Shown here one piece after another: positions 114 through 27,313 of a DNA stretch of 27,313 bases. Under the pieces are notes generated by a model. It was not told where the DNA came from, did not search any database, and worked only from the letters and a program-made list of their open reading frames with translations. Source of the DNA: a virus. Location: positions 1 through 27,313 of IMG/VR virus record IMGVR_UViG_3300022926_000094. One strand, given 5' to 3'. Made by a program: the position numbers and the translations under genes. Position 1 is the stretch's first letter. Every line of letters starts with the position of its first letter.

Positions 114-313
114 TACATCTCTCCCCATCCTGCTGATGTTAACCAAGGCTGATCATCTTTATATTGATTCTCACGCTGCTTTCTAGTGTGCTCACAGTTA
201 TCGCATAGCAATAGCTGACCACGGATACCAGTAGAACCACAATCGGATTCGACTGGACGATAGTCATACCCTGATGGTACGTACTGGGTTACTTTGTTTG
301 TGCATCTAGACAT
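113..313 (-). CDS. Small four-cysteine protein, possible zinc ribbon
   Basis: The product is a 66-aa hydrophilic protein. I chose the ATG at 313-311 over the upstream TTG at 319 because a GAGGA ribosome binding site lies seven bases before the ATG. Four cysteines (C4, C25, C37 and the CDNC motif ending at C40) are spaced so that a single zinc site is plausible; this is inferred from spacing only. The motif YVPSGYDYRPVESDCGSTG is followed by a hydrophobic strand and CDNC, as in small zinc-finger-like proteins of marine phages. The C-terminal third is charged, then Trp-rich. The gene overlaps the end of the 162-aa gene by eight bases and is coupled to the partial gene downstream. The role is unknown. 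Confidence 0.6.
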   Translation of the reverse strand: MSRCTNKVTQYVPSGYDYRPVESDCGSTGIRGQLLLCDNCEHTRKQRENQYKDDQPWLTSAGWGEM

Positions 314-794
314 ATTCAAATCCTCTTTTAACTTTATTTAGATCATTTTCTGATCGCTTAATACTTGATAATCCACGTTTAAGAGAATCATAGCATTCAC
401 TCTCTATAAACTCTTTAGCTTTCTTATATTGATCTTTAGTAGGTTCTCTTCTAAAGTCATCTTTATACTTTAAAGGATTCTCATATCTATCTATAATATT
501 ACGAGAATCATTTTCTTCTGTTTCAACTTTCCATTTAAGTTTATTATGATTAATTTGTTTAACATCTATCGTATCTAACAGGTAATCTTCGAAGCTATCA
601 TAAACTTCTTTAGTTGATATAGATAAATCATATGCTTCATAAAGACCTTCTTTAGCATACTTATCGCTATCAACATCTTTATAATACTTTAAAGCTTTTT
701 CAGCTTCTTTACGAGTGCTAAACTGATGTATTACATAGCAGTTAGCTATATGATCTGTGTAATCTGTTTCGATTAATTGATATATGACTTGCAT
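306..794 (-). CDS. Hypothetical protein, 162 aa, charged
   Basis: The product is a 162-aa, highly charged soluble protein rich in Lys, Glu, Asp and Tyr, with no signal peptide or membrane segment. The N-terminal 60 residues (beginning MQVIYQLIETDYTDH, then a Lys/Glu helix at about 28-40) could form a small alpha/beta domain. The C-terminal half looks helical and basic. The start at 794 has a clear AGGAGA site five bases upstream. The stop overlaps the next gene by eight bases, so the two are in one leftward operon. I recognise no family or catalytic motif. Confidence 0.6.
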   Translation of the reverse strand: MQVIYQLIETDYTDHIANCYVIHQFSTRKEAEKALKYYKDVDSDKYAKEGLYEAYDLSISTKEVYDSFEDYLLDTIDVKQINHNKLKWKVETEENDSRNIIDRYENPLKYKDDFRREPTKDQYKKAKEFIESECYDSLKRGLSSIKRSENDLNKVKRGFEYV

Positions 795-953: not shown

Positions 954-1157
954 TTATAGGCTATTTAACACACGCAGAGTAAACCCGTAAGGATTTGACT
1001 GATACGCTTGGTAATCTTTTAAAGACACCTCTTTCATAGACACACCATCTTGTATGACTTCATCAATATACGCATGAATCTCGTCATTAGACATTTCAGG
1101 CTTCTCTTTTGTCTGCTCTTTCACAAGCATTACCATTGTTGCTGTTAAGCTTTCCAT
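954..1157 (-). CDS. Hypothetical protein, 67 aa
   Basis: The product is a 67-aa soluble protein with an N-terminal hydrophobic stretch (TATMVMLV), an acidic helical middle (EKPEMSNDEIHAYIDEVIQD) and a C-terminus ending in TLRVLNSL. The start at 1157 is supported by an AGGAGA ribosome binding site six bases upstream. The gene follows the second tiny membrane-peptide ORF by only 13 bases, so it is probably co-transcribed with it. The function is unrecognised. Confidence 0.55.
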   Translation of the reverse strand: MESLTATMVMLVKEQTKEKPEMSNDEIHAYIDEVIQDGVSMKEVSLKDYQAYQSNPYGFTLRVLNSL

Positions 1158-1170
1158 GATTCTCTCCTGT

Positions 1171-1236
1171 TTAGCTTACAATAAAGGCTAATAGACACAT
1201 TGCTAGTATTATAACAATTTCTTTATAAGTGAACAT
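1171..1236 (-). CDS. Tiny hydrophobic peptide, 21 aa (putative membrane peptide)
   Basis: The ATG at 1236-1234 opens a 21-codon frame ending in TAA at 1173-1171. After MFTYKE come about 15 hydrophobic residues (IVIILAMCLLAFIVS), enough for one membrane helix. The ATG overlaps the TAA of the 20-aa ORF upstream by one base, and an AAGGA sequence lies six bases before it. The next gene starts 13 bases downstream. Overlap, ribosome site and hydrophobicity together support real translation despite the length. Function is unknown; a chance ORF in AT-rich DNA is the alternative. Confidence 0.45.
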   Translation of the reverse strand: MFTYKEIVIILAMCLLAFIVS

Positions 1237-1298
1237 TAGCTGTCCTTAGATGCATAAAAGAATATTGCTATGATTGCTATAGGAATTAAAATTTCCAT
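1236..1298 (-). CDS. Tiny hydrophobic peptide, 20 aa (putative membrane peptide)
   Basis: The ATG at 1298-1296 opens a 20-codon frame with product MEILIPIAIIAIFFYASKDS: a 14-residue hydrophobic helix followed by a short polar tail, the layout of a single-pass membrane micropeptide. It has a strong AAGGAG site seven bases upstream. That leader is nearly identical to the one before the 114-aa gene at 1714. Its stop overlaps the start of the next tiny ORF. A canonical ribosome site directly before such a short hydrophobic frame is the best evidence that it is expressed. Function is unknown. Confidence 0.5.
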   Translation of the reverse strand: MEILIPIAIIAIFFYASKDS

Positions 1299-1317
1299 AA
1301 TGTTTCTCCTTTGGTTT
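1296..1317 (-). promoter_or_regulatory. Duplicated translation-initiation leader, copy 1
   Basis: These 22 bases, carrying AAAGGAGAAACATTATG on the minus strand, match 1712-1733 with a single mismatch. They hold the ribosome binding site and start codon of the 20-aa membrane peptide. Such conservation of a non-coding leader suggests duplication of a gene-start cassette or selection on initiation strength. Confidence 0.6.
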
Positions 1318-1330
1318 CAGTCTAAATGAC

Positions 1331-1368
1331 TGACATAGGACACCCCGAAGGATGCCCTATAGCTGTCA
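1331..1368 (-). ncRNA. Hairpin with UUCG tetraloop in minus-strand transcript
   Basis: On the minus strand an 11-bp stem (two G-U pairs; arms 1335-1345 and 1350-1360) is capped by C(UUCG)G, an unusually stable tetraloop. An outer TGAC/GTCA pairing (1331-1334 with 1365-1368) extends it past a four-base bulge. It sits directly after the stop of the 114-aa gene and about 30 bases before the 20-aa ORF. No U-tract follows, so a transcript-processing or stabilising hairpin is more likely than a classical terminator. The UUCG reads correctly only on the minus strand, which fits the gene direction. Confidence 0.55.
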
Positions 1369-1369
1369 C

Positions 1370-1714
1370 TTAAGCCATAGTAGCTTGATCATCAAATGCT
1401 TGCTTTAAAGCTCTATCTAAGTCTGACTCTTCATGATATTCAAATGAACCGAACCAACGATTAGGATCAAATCCACCAAATGCTTCAAAGACAACAGGAA
1501 ATTTACCCTTCATGCCACGAAGAAGCTCATCACAAAAAGCTAAACGTTCCTCATTATTAGAACCATAGCGATAAAGATGACACATACGAACTCTACCATC
1601 TGAACATGTAGCAAAGATAGTATGTCCACGATCATGCTTTACTGATTTAAGTTCTTCAATAAAGACTACTTCAGACTTACGTGAAGCCATACCTGCGTTC
1701 TTAACGTTAAACAT
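1370..1714 (-). CDS. Hypothetical protein, 114 aa
   Basis: The product is a 114-aa soluble protein with an apparent small alpha/beta fold: strands around VVFIEEL and TIFATCSDGRVRMCHLYRYG (residues about 16-52), a helix (EERLAFCDELLRGM), then FPVVFEAFGGFDPNRWFGSFEYH and a terminal helix. It has no membrane segment. The start at 1714 has an AAAGGAG site with near-ideal spacing. Hairpins flank the gene on both sides. I do not recognise the family. Confidence 0.6.
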   Translation of the reverse strand: MFNVKNAGMASRKSEVVFIEELKSVKHDRGHTIFATCSDGRVRMCHLYRYGSNNEERLAFCDELLRGMKGKFPVVFEAFGGFDPNRWFGSFEYHEESDLDRALKQAFDDQATMA

Positions 1715-1833: not shown

Positions 1834-2007
1834 TTAAAGAGTAAACAATGATATCATGCAGCACAAAGCACCAAAGGTTAGTGCCATAGATGCCCCAAAG
1901 ATTTCATTAGCGTCACGTTGCCAAGAACCAATTATAAGCCAAGGTAAACCTATTACAACGAAAGAAAAGACTCCAATAGTCGAAAACAAAGTAAAGAAAA
2001 AATTCAT
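1834..2007 (-). CDS. Small two-helix membrane protein, 57 aa
   Basis: The ATG at 2007-2005 is preceded by a near-perfect Shine-Dalgarno site (TAGGAGGTGT, at 2011-2020), the strongest in this arm. The 57-aa product has two hydrophobic helices, about residues 4-28 (from FFTLFSTIGVFSFVVIGLPW) and 41-57, joined by a short polar loop (GSWQRDANEIFG). It ends MISLFTL and has a CC pair at 49-50. It is the first gene of the leftward arm. A plus-strand frame over the same bases is basic, low in complexity and lacks a good ribosome site, so this minus frame is the real gene. Small phage inner-membrane proteins can act in superinfection exclusion, lysis or host takeover; nothing here decides which. Confidence 0.7.
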   Translation of the reverse strand: MNFFFTLFSTIGVFSFVVIGLPWLIIGSWQRDANEIFGASMALTFGALCCMISLFTL

Positions 2008-2187: not shown

Positions 2188-3873
2188 ATGGTTAAGGAAA
2201 AACCCAGCGATATCAAGAAGTTAGCAGAGGGCTGCATGGGATTAAACAATCGACAAAAACTTGAATTACTTAAAGAAAAGAAAAGACGAGAGAAACAAGA
2301 ATATTACAAAGATAATTTCGAAGACTTTGCTAAAGAGCATATTAAGATTATTACAAAAGAGTCTTCTAAAGGATTTGTACCTTTTGAGTTTAATGATGCT
2401 CAGAAGGTTATTAATGAACAACTAGAGCAACAACTAAAGGATACAGGAAAGGTAAGAGCTATTATTCTTAAGGCTCGACAACAAGGTATTTCTACTTATT
2501 GTGCTGCTAGAGTATTTTGGAAAACGTATTATAATGCTTACACTAGATCAGTCGTTATGGCTCACGATAGCCCTACTTCGGATGCTTTGTTTGCTATGTC
2601 TAAGAACCTTATTCAATATATGGATGATGATATTAGACCTTCCTATAGTAGGTCGAATGCTAAAGAAATCCAGTTTGAACATAACAATGCAGGTTATAGA
2701 TTATATACTGCTGGCTCACCCGAGGCAGGTAGGGGAACTACGCCTACAATTGCTCACTTATCAGAAGTTGCATTTTGGCAACATGATGAAAAGATTCTTG
2801 CGGGTTTATTCCAAGGGATATCCCAAGCTGATAACACAGAGGTTATCCTTGAATCAACTGCAAACGGAGCTTCTGGGGAATTCTATAGGCTCTGGAAAGG
2901 AGCAGTAGAAGGAAAGAATGGTTATATCCCTGTATTTGTTCCTTGGTTTCTTACTGAAGAATATAGATTAACTCCTCCCGGTGAACTAGAATACACTGAG
3001 GAAGAAAAGAAGTTAATTGAGAAATATAACTTAGATGATGCTCAATTATACTGGAGACGATTTAAGATTGAAGAATCGGGGGCTAGGAAATTCCAACAAG
3101 AATATCCTGCAGAACCTGATGAAGCCTTTATTGTATCTGGATCTAATGTCTTTAGTACTGAAATAGTTAATGATATGCTTCCTAAAGCACCCCGTAAACG
3201 TTTAAGATTTAATGATGAATTTGGATCTTGGGACGATAATAGGGAAGGGGAGTTACAAGTATGGATACCCCCTACGTTTGATGCTAAATATGTTATAGGG
3301 GCTGATGTATCTTTAGGTACTAATCAAGATTATTCTATAGCTACTGTATTTAATCCTGAGCGTAAACTATGTGCTATGTATCGAACTAATATTATGGACC
3401 CAGGTACATTTGGGGATATTTTATTTTATTTAGGTAGATACTACAATAATGCTCTATTAGCTGTAGAAAGTAATAGTATAGGTAATACAACATTAGATCG
3501 TCTAATGCAAATGTCTTATCTTAATTTATATTATGAAACTAAAGTAGCATCTATGAGAACTAAAGATACTACTCGATTAGGGTTCCGTACTACTGCTGCT
3601 AGTAAGCCTAGGATTATAGGATATTTAAAAAGGTTGGTAGAAGATCTAGATATAGATGTTCCATCAGAAATTATTATCCAAGAATTAAAAGATTATATTG
3701 CTAATGATAATGGTAAGACTGAAGCCCTATCGGGTTCTCATGATGATACCATTATGGCTATAGCAATTGCTATGGAAGTATTAAGAACCCATAGTGATAG
3801 ATTAACGTCTGATACTGTTTCTTGGCGAGATAAAACCAATAGTTATATGGAGGATTCTACAATATGGCTGTAG
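2188..3873 (+). CDS. terL: Terminase large subunit (packaging ATPase and nuclease)
   Basis: This is the DNA-packaging motor and genome-cutting enzyme, which docks on the portal, at 561 aa, a usual length. The ATPase domain has a Walker A-like KARQQGIST at residues 95-103, a Walker B region TIAHLSEVAF at 187-196 with E193 as the likely catalytic base, and a coupling motif LESTANG at 221-227. The RNase H-like nuclease domain shows its acidic residues in GADVSLG (D373), AVESNS (E427) and SHDDT (D519/D520). The first ATG (2188) has a poor ribosome site; Met17 at 2236 is an alternative, and the Lys/Glu-rich N-terminus is not needed for the core fold. The 3' end overlaps the next gene by 10 bases. 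All catalytic motifs are intact. Confidence 0.93.
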   Translation: MVKEKPSDIKKLAEGCMGLNNRQKLELLKEKKRREKQEYYKDNFEDFAKEHIKIITKESSKGFVPFEFNDAQKVINEQLEQQLKDTGKVRAIILKARQQGISTYCAARVFWKTYYNAYTRSVVMAHDSPTSDALFAMSKNLIQYMDDDIRPSYSRSNAKEIQFEHNNAGYRLYTAGSPEAGRGTTPTIAHLSEVAFWQHDEKILAGLFQGISQADNTEVILESTANGASGEFYRLWKGAVEGKNGYIPVFVPWFLTEEYRLTPPGELEYTEEEKKLIEKYNLDDAQLYWRRFKIEESGARKFQQEYPAEPDEAFIVSGSNVFSTEIVNDMLPKAPRKRLRFNDEFGSWDDNREGELQVWIPPTFDAKYVIGADVSLGTNQDYSIATVFNPERKLCAMYRTNIMDPGTFGDILFYLGRYYNNALLAVESNSIGNTTLDRLMQMSYLNLYYETKVASMRTKDTTRLGFRTTAASKPRIIGYLKRLVEDLDIDVPSEIIIQELKDYIANDNGKTEALSGSHDDTIMAIAIAMEVLRTHSDRLTSDTVSWRDKTNSYMEDSTIWL

Positions 3874-24700: not shown

Positions 24701-25233
24701 ATATAGGTTGGTCTATTCCTGCATTCAATTATATTCCTAGAACAGAAACAGAAAATTCAGTTCAATTTAAAAATATTATTACTAATAACGATGAGCCTGT
24801 TCCTTATGAATCTTTCTTTGAAAGAAAACAATTAGCTGTTTCTCCAGAGTTTGATACAGAAACAATTAGAAAAATTGCTTTATGGGCAGATGGTCAATAT
24901 ATTCCTTACGTTAATTCTCCAAACAATTTTAATAGATTACAAATTAGAATGTTAGGAACAGATAATCCTGGAAAAAATGTTGACTTAACTACTTTAACAA
25001 ATACTAATACTAAGTATAACAATTTCTTTGTAAGTGAAGATTATAAAGTAGACATTAAAGCTAATGGAAGATTTTTAAATTATCGTATTTCAGATGTTAT
25101 ATTAGATGAAAATAATAATGAATTAGAATTAACTTCTAATGTAGATAGTGATAATTCTGTAATTTATAATCAAATAAGTGAATGGCGTATTAGTGGTATG
25201 CAACCAGAAATTTCTAAAGGAGGTGCTAGATAA
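21736..25233 (+). CDS. Tail nozzle protein (P22 gp10 / tubular B-like)
   Basis: The product is 1165 aa with a GTG start six bases after AAGGAG; an out-of-frame ATG overlaps it. The N-terminus (LPINQLDQAGVILDTPPVAL, then SFSNVRNIRFKDGAIKKMEG) is characteristic of nozzle or 'stabilisation' proteins of SU10/P22-like podoviruses, which close the short tail below the adaptor. The segments FVRCGVIRSFGDFLVAGNLV, DMKEMQGNLYIYSNSSISVM, YDGRHFVVGSQDIYVFEG and EIWICYP/ALIWNYRSNTWTIRD (about 330-540) look like propeller blades. Residues about 560-960 are a long, Asn/Asp/Thr-rich, beta-type region with two similar EITNP/TAEEAATKW-style units, larger than I expect for the family. The C-terminal part (about 1000-1165) returns to a propeller-like pattern. 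Confidence 0.8.
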   Translation: MADQVLPINQLDQAGVILDTPPVALPPNSFSNVRNIRFKDGAIKKMEGEVNIFPNIFDDSNNLINSVSANFDGSIIKYFLWWDNPNLANVNKGYYLIIAEEERLVSDNSIPPQGNTNPTHQKDIAYLVNVNGSTKVQKGIFQPTEIGNWQHTFFQGGFCLIINNGLDKPNYILDDNNNTNINNIPNFAELPGWDSYKVNQIYLQDTFNSNTDSFIFDLGKKVNFALEYIEIVDYDSQTESYTTFTAAGVDGDGDAANSVNYDAPDYSTFTGDPTVGFLTNDQYEIYFDSTTNSHIVFLPSNLDHGSHTDKLTISIRSRDEVFVRCGVIRSFGDFLVAGNLVERDGEDLATSLIVRNLNGVVRTSDAAAPGAVPNNWNPFAAGVSTADEFVLAETGIIQDMKEMQGNLYIYSNSSISVMRLTGNTSVPLSVSPVSRSYGCQTTDAVISYDGRHFVVGSQDIYVFEGHPGSIKSVSDKRVRRYFFDNLNPLHATNLFCVKYTQRDEIWICYPTVDSTTGECNEALIWNYRSNTWTIRDLRGVISGSIGPVPGGGLPNTQIDVDNISGDNGVIQLGTVEIRTIGIDNTQSINPDIEFYTGGLSDFIYGTGRNGNTSRVEVNNDRPMYEVRVYPTLTLTGPENISESFTITNPNADINTDEVTAEQIFTQLVTKISEQTGWGTNLPSEYTQLVDTSTNRIIAAEDDTNISKYRAVDNSAFNISLDISNSNIPNISSLDLDFQDSINTSSVHGIIKDSSNDYRGQEVLKATPTYLGLEIRDFNSPGNTQLIILQAGDTGTYDFSDHTGINGETLTAEEAATKWISELNIATPNLKIVDRGTAGEFDIQPANFSDFADFVIDVRVNNNQENADWIWEKYQDAISGTIGLNSNSATLFINDGDTSLRVASNSPTVAGTLDDQINIDPLRAPSRTETETTATMSITKTENNVFDLDRPWATDEVNPNLEFPLFASKAFVVDSNGLNQYNMNKIVAADIGWSIPAFNYIPRTETENSVQFKNIITNNDEPVPYESFFERKQLAVSPEFDTETIRKIALWADGQYIPYVNSPNNFNRLQIRMLGTDNPGKNVDLTTLTNTNTKYNNFFVSEDYKVDIKANGRFLNYRISDVILDENNNELELTSNVDSDNSVIYNQISEWRISGMQPEISKGGAR

Positions 25234-25846: not shown

Positions 25847-26038
25847 GTGAAAGAGATGGCAACAGAAGGTACAAAAACTTTAATAGACGGCATAAGTATG
25901 GTAACCGTCATTGGTACAATAGGTGAAGTGTTGCCTCCTTTAGCAGCACTCTTCACAGTTATTTGGACCGTTATTAGAATTTATGAAACCAAAACAGTAC
26001 AGAGGATTCTAAAAAGGAAACCTCCTAATGATCTTTGA
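25847..26038 (+). CDS. Putative class II-like holin, 63 aa
   Basis: The product is 63 aa, with one long hydrophobic segment (about 16-45, VTVIGTIGEVLPPLAALFTV, then IWTVIRIY) possibly forming a hairpin around the LPP, then a basic tail (KTVQRILKRKP). This matches small holins of marine podoviruses, which accumulate in the inner membrane and trigger lysis. GTG (25847) and ATG (25856) are both possible starts; AGGGA precedes the GTG and AAAGAG the ATG. The first version begins MKEM, with one extra Lys and one extra Glu. The gene follows the fibre paralogue by one base and overlaps the next gene by 11 bases. Confidence 0.65.
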   Translation: MKEMATEGTKTLIDGISMVTVIGTIGEVLPPLAALFTVIWTVIRIYETKTVQRILKRKPPNDL

Positions 26039-26477
26039 AGCAATTGCTGCAATTAAAATCGCTAATGAAGCTATCGGTGCTATTAAAGAGTTTGCTGGTC
26101 ACATTCAATCTGTCGGAGAGATGGGACCACAACTCACTAAATTAGCAGATGCTAAAGAAGAATTAGAAAAGAAAGCCAAAGATGGCGACATGGAATGCTT
26201 CTTTGAATTAGAAAAGATTCGTAATAAAGAAGCTGAAATTAAACAAATGTTTATTTACCAAGGACGAGCAGGTCTCTGGGATGATTACTGTAAATTTATA
26301 GCTAATAGGAAACAATTAAAAGAGAATGAACGAAAACGAATTGCCGATAAGAAAGCCCGTAGAGCTAAACAAATTAAAGACTGGAGTATTGGTATCGCTG
26401 TTACCGTGGCCACCCTTTCTGCTATTGGCATATGCGGTTATTTCCTTTATTGGCTCATAAGTGTAAAAGGAAAATAG
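26028..26477 (+). CDS. Membrane-anchored helical protein, 149 aa
   Basis: The product has an amphipathic N-terminus (MIFEAIAAIKIANEAIGAIK), coiled-coil-like charged helices at about 35-70 and 90-117 (the latter very basic, NERKRIADKKARRAKQIKD), and one C-terminal membrane helix at about 121-144 followed by KGK. The domain therefore likely faces the cytoplasm with a C-terminal anchor. It overlaps the holin-like gene by 11 bases and has AAGGAAA upstream. Its place in the membrane cassette suggests a role with lysis, but it lacks the N-terminal anchor expected of an inner-membrane spanin. Small virion or internal core protein is an alternative. Confidence 0.6.
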   Translation: MIFEAIAAIKIANEAIGAIKEFAGHIQSVGEMGPQLTKLADAKEELEKKAKDGDMECFFELEKIRNKEAEIKQMFIYQGRAGLWDDYCKFIANRKQLKENERKRIADKKARRAKQIKDWSIGIAVTVATLSAIGICGYFLYWLISVKGK

Positions 26478-26478
26478 T

Positions 26479-26661
26479 ATGTGGCTACTTTTCGCAATAC
26501 TAATTCAAAGCGATGGGTACGCTGTTTATCCTCAAGGTCCATTTATGACAATGGATGAATGCTTTGAAGCTCGTGAATACTTTTTAGCAACAGCACCAGA
26601 GCCTAAGATTAATTATGAAGCAGTATGTATACAAACTGATGTTACAGGAAATAAAACGTGA
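26479..26661 (+). CDS. Small protein with hydrophobic N-terminus and two cysteines, 60 aa
   Basis: The product starts MWLLFAILIQSDGYAVYPQG, a short hydrophobic start that could be a weak export signal. It has two cysteines (C28 in MTMDECFEAREYF and C50 in YEAVCIQTD) that could form a disulfide if exported. The stop overlaps the GTG of the next gene. AAAAGGAAAA lies about eight bases before the ATG. I do not recognise the family with confidence; short proteins with the DECFEARE-type motif appear in marine phage lysis regions, as I recall. Confidence 0.55.
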   Translation: MWLLFAILIQSDGYAVYPQGPFMTMDECFEAREYFLATAPEPKINYEAVCIQTDVTGNKT

Positions 26662-26972
26662 CAGACATAGAAGCATATGACCTTAACGGTGATGGAAAGA
26701 TTGATCAAGAAGAGCGTAATATTATGCTTGAAGATCGTAGGCGTAAAATGGAAGATGCTGACGCTCAACGTGACAGCATTAGGAAGATGGCTTGGTTCGC
26801 ACTCTTTGGTCTTCTTTTGTATCCTTTTGGGATATTCCTTGCTGATCTTTTTGGTATGGATACAGCAGCTCAGTTAATTGCTGACATCGCTCCTACGTAC
26901 TTCGCATCAATTGCAGTCCTCGTGTCTGCCTTCTTCGGCGCCTCAGCATTGCAGGGTAAGAAAGATGCTTAA
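26658..26972 (+). CDS. EF-hand protein with two membrane helices, 104 aa
   Basis: The GTG start lies in the stop of the 60-aa gene; the upstream AGGAAATAAAAC gives a usable ribosome site. Residues 8-19, DLNGDGKIDQEE, form a complete EF-hand loop (D8, N10, D12, backbone of 14, D16, E19), so calcium binding is likely. A highly charged helix follows (ERNIMLEDRRRKMEDADAQR, about 19-38), then two hydrophobic helices at about 44-64 and 76-98. The C-terminal end is GKKDA. The layout suggests a membrane protein with a calcium-responsive cytoplasmic or periplasmic N-terminus. Its end overlaps the next gene by eight bases. Calcium dependence is inferred from the motif alone. Confidence 0.7.
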   Translation: MTDIEAYDLNGDGKIDQEERNIMLEDRRRKMEDADAQRDSIRKMAWFALFGLLLYPFGIFLADLFGMDTAAQLIADIAPTYFASIAVLVSAFFGASALQGKKDA

Positions 26973-27313
26973 CTTATTAATTGGTCCAGCGATGGATCTT
27001 GCTAAAGACTTTATTAAAGGTAAGGCAGACGAAAAGAAAGCTATTCAAGAGCGTAAGATAAGTGCTATTCAAAATGATGCTGACTGGGAAGCTAAGATGG
27101 CTGACGCCACTAAGGATTCTTGGAAGGATGAGTTTTGGAGTATTGTACTAGCATTACCTATTGTAGCTATTGCTTATAGTGTAGCCATAGATGATGTATC
27201 TATTATTGATCGTGTTAAACAAGGATTTGAAGTTTTAAATACTTTACCTGAATGGTATCAGTATTTATTATTCATTGCAGTATCAGCTAGTTTTGGACTT
27301 AAATCCGCAGATA
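26965..27313 (+). CDS. Three-helix holin-like protein, partial (runs off right edge)
   Basis: The ATG at 26965 lies within the last codons of the EF-hand gene. The visible 116 residues begin MLNLLIGPAMDLAKDFIKGK, followed by a charged helix (about 20-52, ERKISAIQNDADWEAKMADA), a hydrophobic helix at 55-73 (DEFWSIVLALPIVAIAYSVA), a loop (IDDVSIIDRVKQGFEVLNTL) and a second helix at about 98-112 (YQYLLFIAVSASFGLKSAD). This pattern matches the '3TM' holin family known from gene-transfer-agent release and many marine phages. The end of the protein is outside the window. It would be the second holin candidate in the cassette. Confidence 0.7.
   Translation, partial: MLNLLIGPAMDLAKDFIKGKADEKKAIQERKISAIQNDADWEAKMADATKDSWKDEFWSIVLALPIVAIAYSVAIDDVSIIDRVKQGFEVLNTLPEWYQYLLFIAVSASFGLKSAD

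Follow-up and report, generated by a model that had tools for sequence, protein, structure and literature searches.

Within a 27.3-kb virus record, the whole of which (27,313 nucleotides) is referred to here as the window, we identified two overlapping minus-strand ORFs, termed micro-gene A (mA) and micro-gene B (mB), that specify hydrophobic peptides of only 20 and 21 amino acids. The reading that we favor, with moderate confidence, is that these are co-translated micro-genes forming a mobile accessory cassette of a marine phage related to CRP-7, and that their products act on a host inner-membrane protein. The window terminase (2188–3873, plus strand) and its counterpart in Roseobacter phage CRP-7 share 60% identity. 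The pair belongs to a divergent operon that occupies the minus strand to the left of the window terminase; the features of this operon are as follows, in operon order.

1834–2007, minus strand: first gene of the divergent operon, encoding a 57-aa protein with two predicted transmembrane (TM) helices.
1370–1714, minus strand: gene for a 114-aa protein, the conserved neighbor on the 5′ side of the pair.
1322–1371, minus strand: RNA hairpin of the intergenic space that separates the 114-aa gene from the ribosome-binding site (RBS) of mA, with compensatory changes at 6 of 21 pairs.
1306–1312, minus strand: Shine-Dalgarno (SD) sequence of mA, AAAGGAG, seven nucleotides before the ATG.
1236–1298, minus strand: mA, 20 aa, MEILIPIAIIAIFFYASKDS, recognized by ORF call, hydropathy, and a diverged homologue.
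1243–1247, minus strand: SD of mB, AAGGA, within the mA codons for the tail residues K-D, with a 6-nt spacer to the ATG.
1234–1238, minus strand: TAATG stop/start junction (GCTAATG), at which mA and mB overlap by 1 nt.
1171–1236, minus strand: mB, 21 aa, MFTYKEIVIILAMCLLAFIVS, recognized by ORF call, hydropathy, and a diverged homologue.
954–1157, minus strand: gene for a 67-aa protein, the 3′ neighbor of the pair.
306–794, minus strand: gene for a 162-aa protein.
After the 162-aa gene, minus strand: gene for a 66–68-aa protein with a weak HNH-like match.

The mA peptide consists of an N-terminal ME, one hydrophobic helix, and a short polar tail, SKDS, and mB has a polar N terminus, MFTYKE, followed by a hydrophobic helix that reaches the C terminus. 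Nearly all residues of the two peptides are hydrophobic, and their best 15-residue Kyte–Doolittle means are 2.54 (mA) and 3.19 (mB). These features bear out the original prediction of two tandem minus-strand micro-ORFs (1298–1236 and 1236–1171) that share a TAATG junction and each contain one membrane-helix-like stretch. That prediction credited an SD to the first ORF only; the AAAGGAG before mA is indeed present, but mB also has an SD of its own, AAGGA. The mA SD is part of a repeated RBS block, AAAGGAGAAACATTATG, that also starts the 114-aa gene. As had further been proposed, the pair shares its operon with a 57-aa two-helix protein (2007–1834), from whose gene it is separated by the 114-aa gene.

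In the related contigs L019 and L024, which have longer arms, the operon runs on into a gene for a gp2.5-like ssDNA-binding protein (phrog_112). Because this gene follows there, the divergent operon is probably an early, replication-side operon, with early expression being read from gene content. The pair lies near the operon start in the relatives, except in L019, where a different pair is found about 4.5 kb down. The 114-aa protein yielded no Pfam or PHROG match. Two relatives, L011 and L015, have an open frame of 126–155 aa (SAVSGSLRSVPSAPVSVLSV...) in GC-rich DNA upstream of the 57-aa gene toward the terminase; its similarity to the 114-aa protein is weak, at 31% over 87 aa, and it is overlapped by long frames on other strands.

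ORFs as short as these might arise by chance or might represent a translated leader that only spaces the 67-aa gene, and such an origin would be in keeping with the lack of the pair in relatives L002 and L004 and with its recovery in one diverged copy only. However, dinucleotide shuffling of the 212-nt slot gave no pair in 4000 trials (any SD-preceded hydrophobic micro-ORF appeared in 0.3% of them), and neither 1500 shuffled versions of the complete 2.2-kb arm nor the shuffles that accompany the terminase-upstream scan described below contained one. Moreover, the copy present in L008 has 63% nucleotide identity to the window pair with both frames open, and the pN/pS values between the two are 0.34 for mA (first 17 codons) and 0.49 for mB. 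A pooled Fisher test on rounded counts gave a P value of about 0.0005, and when the same substitutions were placed at random, the observed number of retained amino acids was matched in 0.3% of trials for mA and in 2.9% for mB; this selection test comprises 38 codons in one comparison, with the single diverged version of the exact pair. L008 also keeps the SD, the hydrophobicity, and the junction (TAA and ATG abut rather than overlap), and no frame-broken copy of the pair was seen in the relatives examined. Whereas the original prediction looked to frame breaks or start codon loss as evidence against it, this diverged relative retains frame and start and exhibits synonymous bias. A spacing role is further opposed by the 67-aa gene, which carries its own SD with or without the cassette. 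We judge a chance or leader origin to be highly improbable, and mA and mB are very probably genuine protein-coding genes.

Relatives were collected by using the 114-aa gene, the 67-aa gene, and the terminase, and the mA–mB site was found in four states. L001 and L012 carry the same pair within a 1.4-kb stretch that is identical to the window save near its two ends; because it shows no difference from the window, this copy does not constitute independent evidence. In L008 and L011, both peptides have diverged, with MEMLIPLGILAFFFMMSIKEKEK (A) followed by MFTKKEVIAILIACLFAYMFS (B) and with TAA and ATG abutting. In L015, the slot holds one micro-ORF, MEISAIVMLCVIVFYAIATKND, and no mB. Finally, in the close relatives L002 and L004, the cassette is absent, and the 67-aa gene directly follows the hairpin of the 114-aa gene. 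Note that L003 was left out of the slot scoring, since its contig ends exactly at the ATG. The 67-aa gene adjoins the pair in the window and in L008 and follows the single micro-ORF in L015.

The edges of the cassette carry repeats. In L008 and L015, the cassette is flanked at both ends by near-identical RBS-ATG-GAA-A sequences (GGAGAAAYAYTATGGAAA-like), a single copy of which starts the 67-aa gene in L002 and L004; in the window, the second copy has diverged. Recombination between these edge repeats would explain the gain and loss of the cassette. Because the pair retains only 63% identity between the window and L008 against 98.5% DNA identity for the neighboring 67-aa gene, the cassette, or a segment that includes it, has probably been exchanged rather than slowly diverged. 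Fusion of mA to mB by frameshifting or readthrough was considered and rejected, as mB is in the −1 frame in the window whereas L008 has both ORFs in one frame, separated by a stop; the arrangement is therefore not conserved.

Tandem micro-ORFs recur beside related terminases. We scanned up to 5 kb upstream of 58 such terminases (164 kb in total) for SD-preceded hydrophobic ORFs of 15–50 aa. The operon (antisense) strand yielded 47 of them, against an average of 2.0 in shuffles, and the opposite strand 4; the strand bias itself is expected because genes there are antisense, and the informative contrast is that with the shuffles. Tandem pairs were present at nine loci (the window, L012, L011, L019, L020, L023, L024, L026, and L049) and in none of 60 shuffled sets of terminase-upstream DNA. 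L022 and L028 also carry a pair that was missed by the SD rule, which brings the number of contigs to eleven. Nine of these have the exact 1-nt TAATG overlap, the stop and start abut in L011, and a 10-nt gap is present in L049.

The pairs represent about five lineages: the window type, L019, L020/L023, L022/L024/L026/L028, and L049. Clear homology links the A peptides of L020/L023 to those of L022/L024/L026/L028, and there are weak hints of similarity between window-type A peptides and those of distant relatives (best P of 0.002, with L020, uncorrected for many comparisons). The B peptides show no sequence similarity between lineages, and a shared function for them is assumed from architecture alone. 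Families with two or more versions have pN/pS values mostly between 0 and 0.4, the exception being L039/L044 with a value of 1.0 on five differences.

Other small ORFs were also encountered. Additional families of single-helix ORFs of 25–34 aa occur in the terminase-proximal operon of L036, L055, L066, L078, L082, L087, L039, L041, L044, L042, L045, L052, L053, and L071, and several exhibit strong synonymous bias. CRP-7 itself (L126, 422–571) has an unannotated 49-aa single-TM ORF with an SD between gp01 and gp02. Several candidates were set aside. A 17-aa ORF (MALALGG...) in L011 and L015 was left out of the counts because it represents the end of the 57-aa gene, and 25-aa ORFs (MFTEKE...) in L090 and L108 that might have belonged to an mB family lie out of frame within a portal-like gene of 516–524 aa. 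The 35-aa ORFs (MEILIPLAIIAV...) recovered with the mA pattern resemble it mostly at the searched positions and differ in length and tail. Likewise, the similarity of the 67-aa protein to the soluble protein of 42–59 aa encoded before the pair in L020, L022, and L024, considered as a sign of homology, was not significant.

In 10 of the 11 contigs with a pair, the codons for the polar tail of A double as the SD of B. The codons involved are AAG GAC in the window, AAG GAG in L008, GAG GAT in L019, AGG AGA in L020, L023, L022, and L028, and AGG AAT in L024 and L026; the non-overlapping pair of L049 has no embedded SD. The use of an SD in the search partly conditions this count, but the junctions in L022 and L028 came to light independently of the SD. 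The charged tails of A are alike (SKDS, KEKEK, NEDD, DIRRF, and NDIRNY), but because they encode the SD of B, their likeness may reflect RNA as much as protein, and they should be read with caution as topology signals. Translational coupling is an established behavior of TAATG and ATGA junctions. The combination of SD and overlap suggests that mA and mB are translationally coupled and that comparable amounts of both peptides would be produced.

We considered what this arrangement may mean for how the two peptides work. One possibility, which we advance tentatively, is an exchangeable bicistronic module of CRP-7-related phages whose coupled single-helix peptides of 20–47 aa would form an obligate heteromer on an inner-membrane target. 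Alternatively, each peptide alone might be an adaptor for a different host membrane protein, with the tandem resulting from moron accumulation in a compact operon. The lone micro-ORF without mB in the L015 slot and the single unpaired micro-TM ORFs in the same operon of several relatives are consistent with lone adaptors. Yet the tight TAATG coupling seen in most contigs with the pair and the usual adjacency of two micro-TM genes when a lineage has both argue against independent roles, and we regard this alternative as unlikely.

The hairpin that precedes the slot is kept in all six genomes examined. Because it lacks a U-run, and thus is not a standard terminator, and no terminator-like site was found, it may be an RNA-processing or stabilizing element. 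A separate observation concerns 29 nt at the mB start (1210–1238, minus strand), which match positions 25015–25043 at 93%, a score reached in 0 of 1000 shuffles of the pair DNA. The matched site is antisense of a late gene for a 1165-aa tail-like protein, and mB mRNA could pair with the mRNA of that gene; the match is absent from the diverged mB of L008.

Database searches with the peptides were largely negative. No Pfam match to mA or mB exceeded the cut-off, and the sole PHROG match (phrog_35948, E value of 0.0022) covers the hydrophobic stretch, belongs to a family without an assigned function, and is missed by the homologous L008 peptide. We found no profile or sequence match of known function for the pair, no credible relatives of the peptides in annotated phages, and no credible relatives of the neighboring genes in bacterial genomes. 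A search of the relatives' full contigs with mB gave no match, a negative that is uninformative for a 21-aa query. At 20–21 aa, the two genes are at or below usual length limits and in this resemble other small phage genes missed by gene finders, a class that Fremin et al. reportedly surveyed in 2022 (Cell Rep. 39:110984, cited in PMC11364881). Tiny unannotated phage membrane proteins are a known kind, of which coupled tandems that recur and carry an embedded SD form a variant; no description of such a tandem was found in the open-licence papers searched.

The original prediction had included lysis control among the possible roles of the pair. Holin/antiholin and pinholin pairs are small membrane proteins, sometimes with overlapping or adjacent starts, that are encoded in late lysis cassettes. 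Two co-made single-helix peptides would fit an effector and its inhibitor in a lysis-timing device, similar to a tiny holin/antiholin or pinholin system, and membrane-active micropeptides can depolarize cells. However, the known pairs are much longer than mA and mB and occupy a different position, and to our knowledge, characterized phage holins are all far longer than twenty residues. The position of mA and mB in a divergent, probably early operon near replication genes (ssDNA-binding protein), with no adjacent endolysin, and the existence of a small TM protein cluster in the late operon (25847–27312) disfavor lysis control, as does the lack of the cassette in close relatives, which would be unusual for an essential lysis function. 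We therefore consider a lysis role improbable. The late cluster (plus strand) encodes proteins of 63 and 149 aa along with a 104-aa protein that is EF-hand-like and has TM helices; another of its products matches phrog_2524 (E value of 1.5e-32), a family without assigned function. None of its small TM proteins is named a holin by Pfam or PHROGs, and the cluster is a candidate for the lysis genes of the window phage.

In size, the peptides also resemble type I toxins such as IbsC (19 aa, which works with 15 residues), ShoB (26 aa), and TisB (29 aa) (PMC8309996), each of which has one hydrophobic helix. If mA and mB were membrane toxins of this kind, they would depolarize the host or cause its arrest, whether or not an antisense RNA is involved, and their length and hydrophobicity match this expectation. 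In contrast, type I toxins are single and repressed by antisense RNA, whereas mA and mB are two non-identical, coupled peptides whose operon is normally translated and has strong SDs, and no antisense gene is evident. Promoter-like sites on the opposite strand number 6 versus 9.2 in shuffles, and no terminator was found, although an RNA acting in trans would still be compatible with these data. A toxin function is, in our estimation, doubtful at best, and this reading, like that of lysis, is less likely than action on a host membrane protein.

Among known systems, the nearest in function is PfsE of Pf filamentous phages, a 30-aa protein that binds inner-membrane PilC to bring about superinfection exclusion and that has a conserved aromatic motif, YXWGW (PMC8764522). 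PfsE is a tiny phage inner-membrane peptide, as mA and mB are predicted to be, and exerts its effect through a host membrane protein, which is plausible for mA and mB as well. However, PfsE is the product of a single gene of a temperate filamentous phage, whereas mA and mB come as a coupled pair from a tailed phage. Because neither mA nor mB nor the L008 and L015 peptides contain the YXWGW motif, mA and mB are not members of the PfsE family.

Most likely, the cassette is an accessory early module directed at a host inner-membrane protein, and the superinfection block and host inhibition put forward in the original prediction are both plausible. In the mechanism that we propose, the early operon would first be transcribed, and the ribosome would begin at mA by way of the standard operon RBS. 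Initiation at mB would then follow from the TAATG overlap together with the SD in the mA tail, such that both peptides are made together. Each would insert into the host inner membrane as a single helix, and the pair, either as a heteromer or as two adaptors, would bind and modify a host membrane protein to the benefit of the phage, with host takeover or a PfsE-like superinfection exclusion as the outcome.

If the obligate-heteromer reading is true, a two-peptide membrane effector has been missed, both of its genes being below annotation length limits. More broadly, our preferred reading would mean that a group of marine phages keeps and swaps pairs of 20–47-aa membrane peptides that are invisible to standard annotation. 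SD-preceded hydrophobic micro-ORFs are about 20 times commoner in terminase-upstream DNA than in shuffled sequence, and a TAATG junction combined with an SD in the A tail provides a simple signature for finding pairs elsewhere. The mA–mB pair thus offers a concrete module for probing host-membrane takeover or superinfection exclusion.
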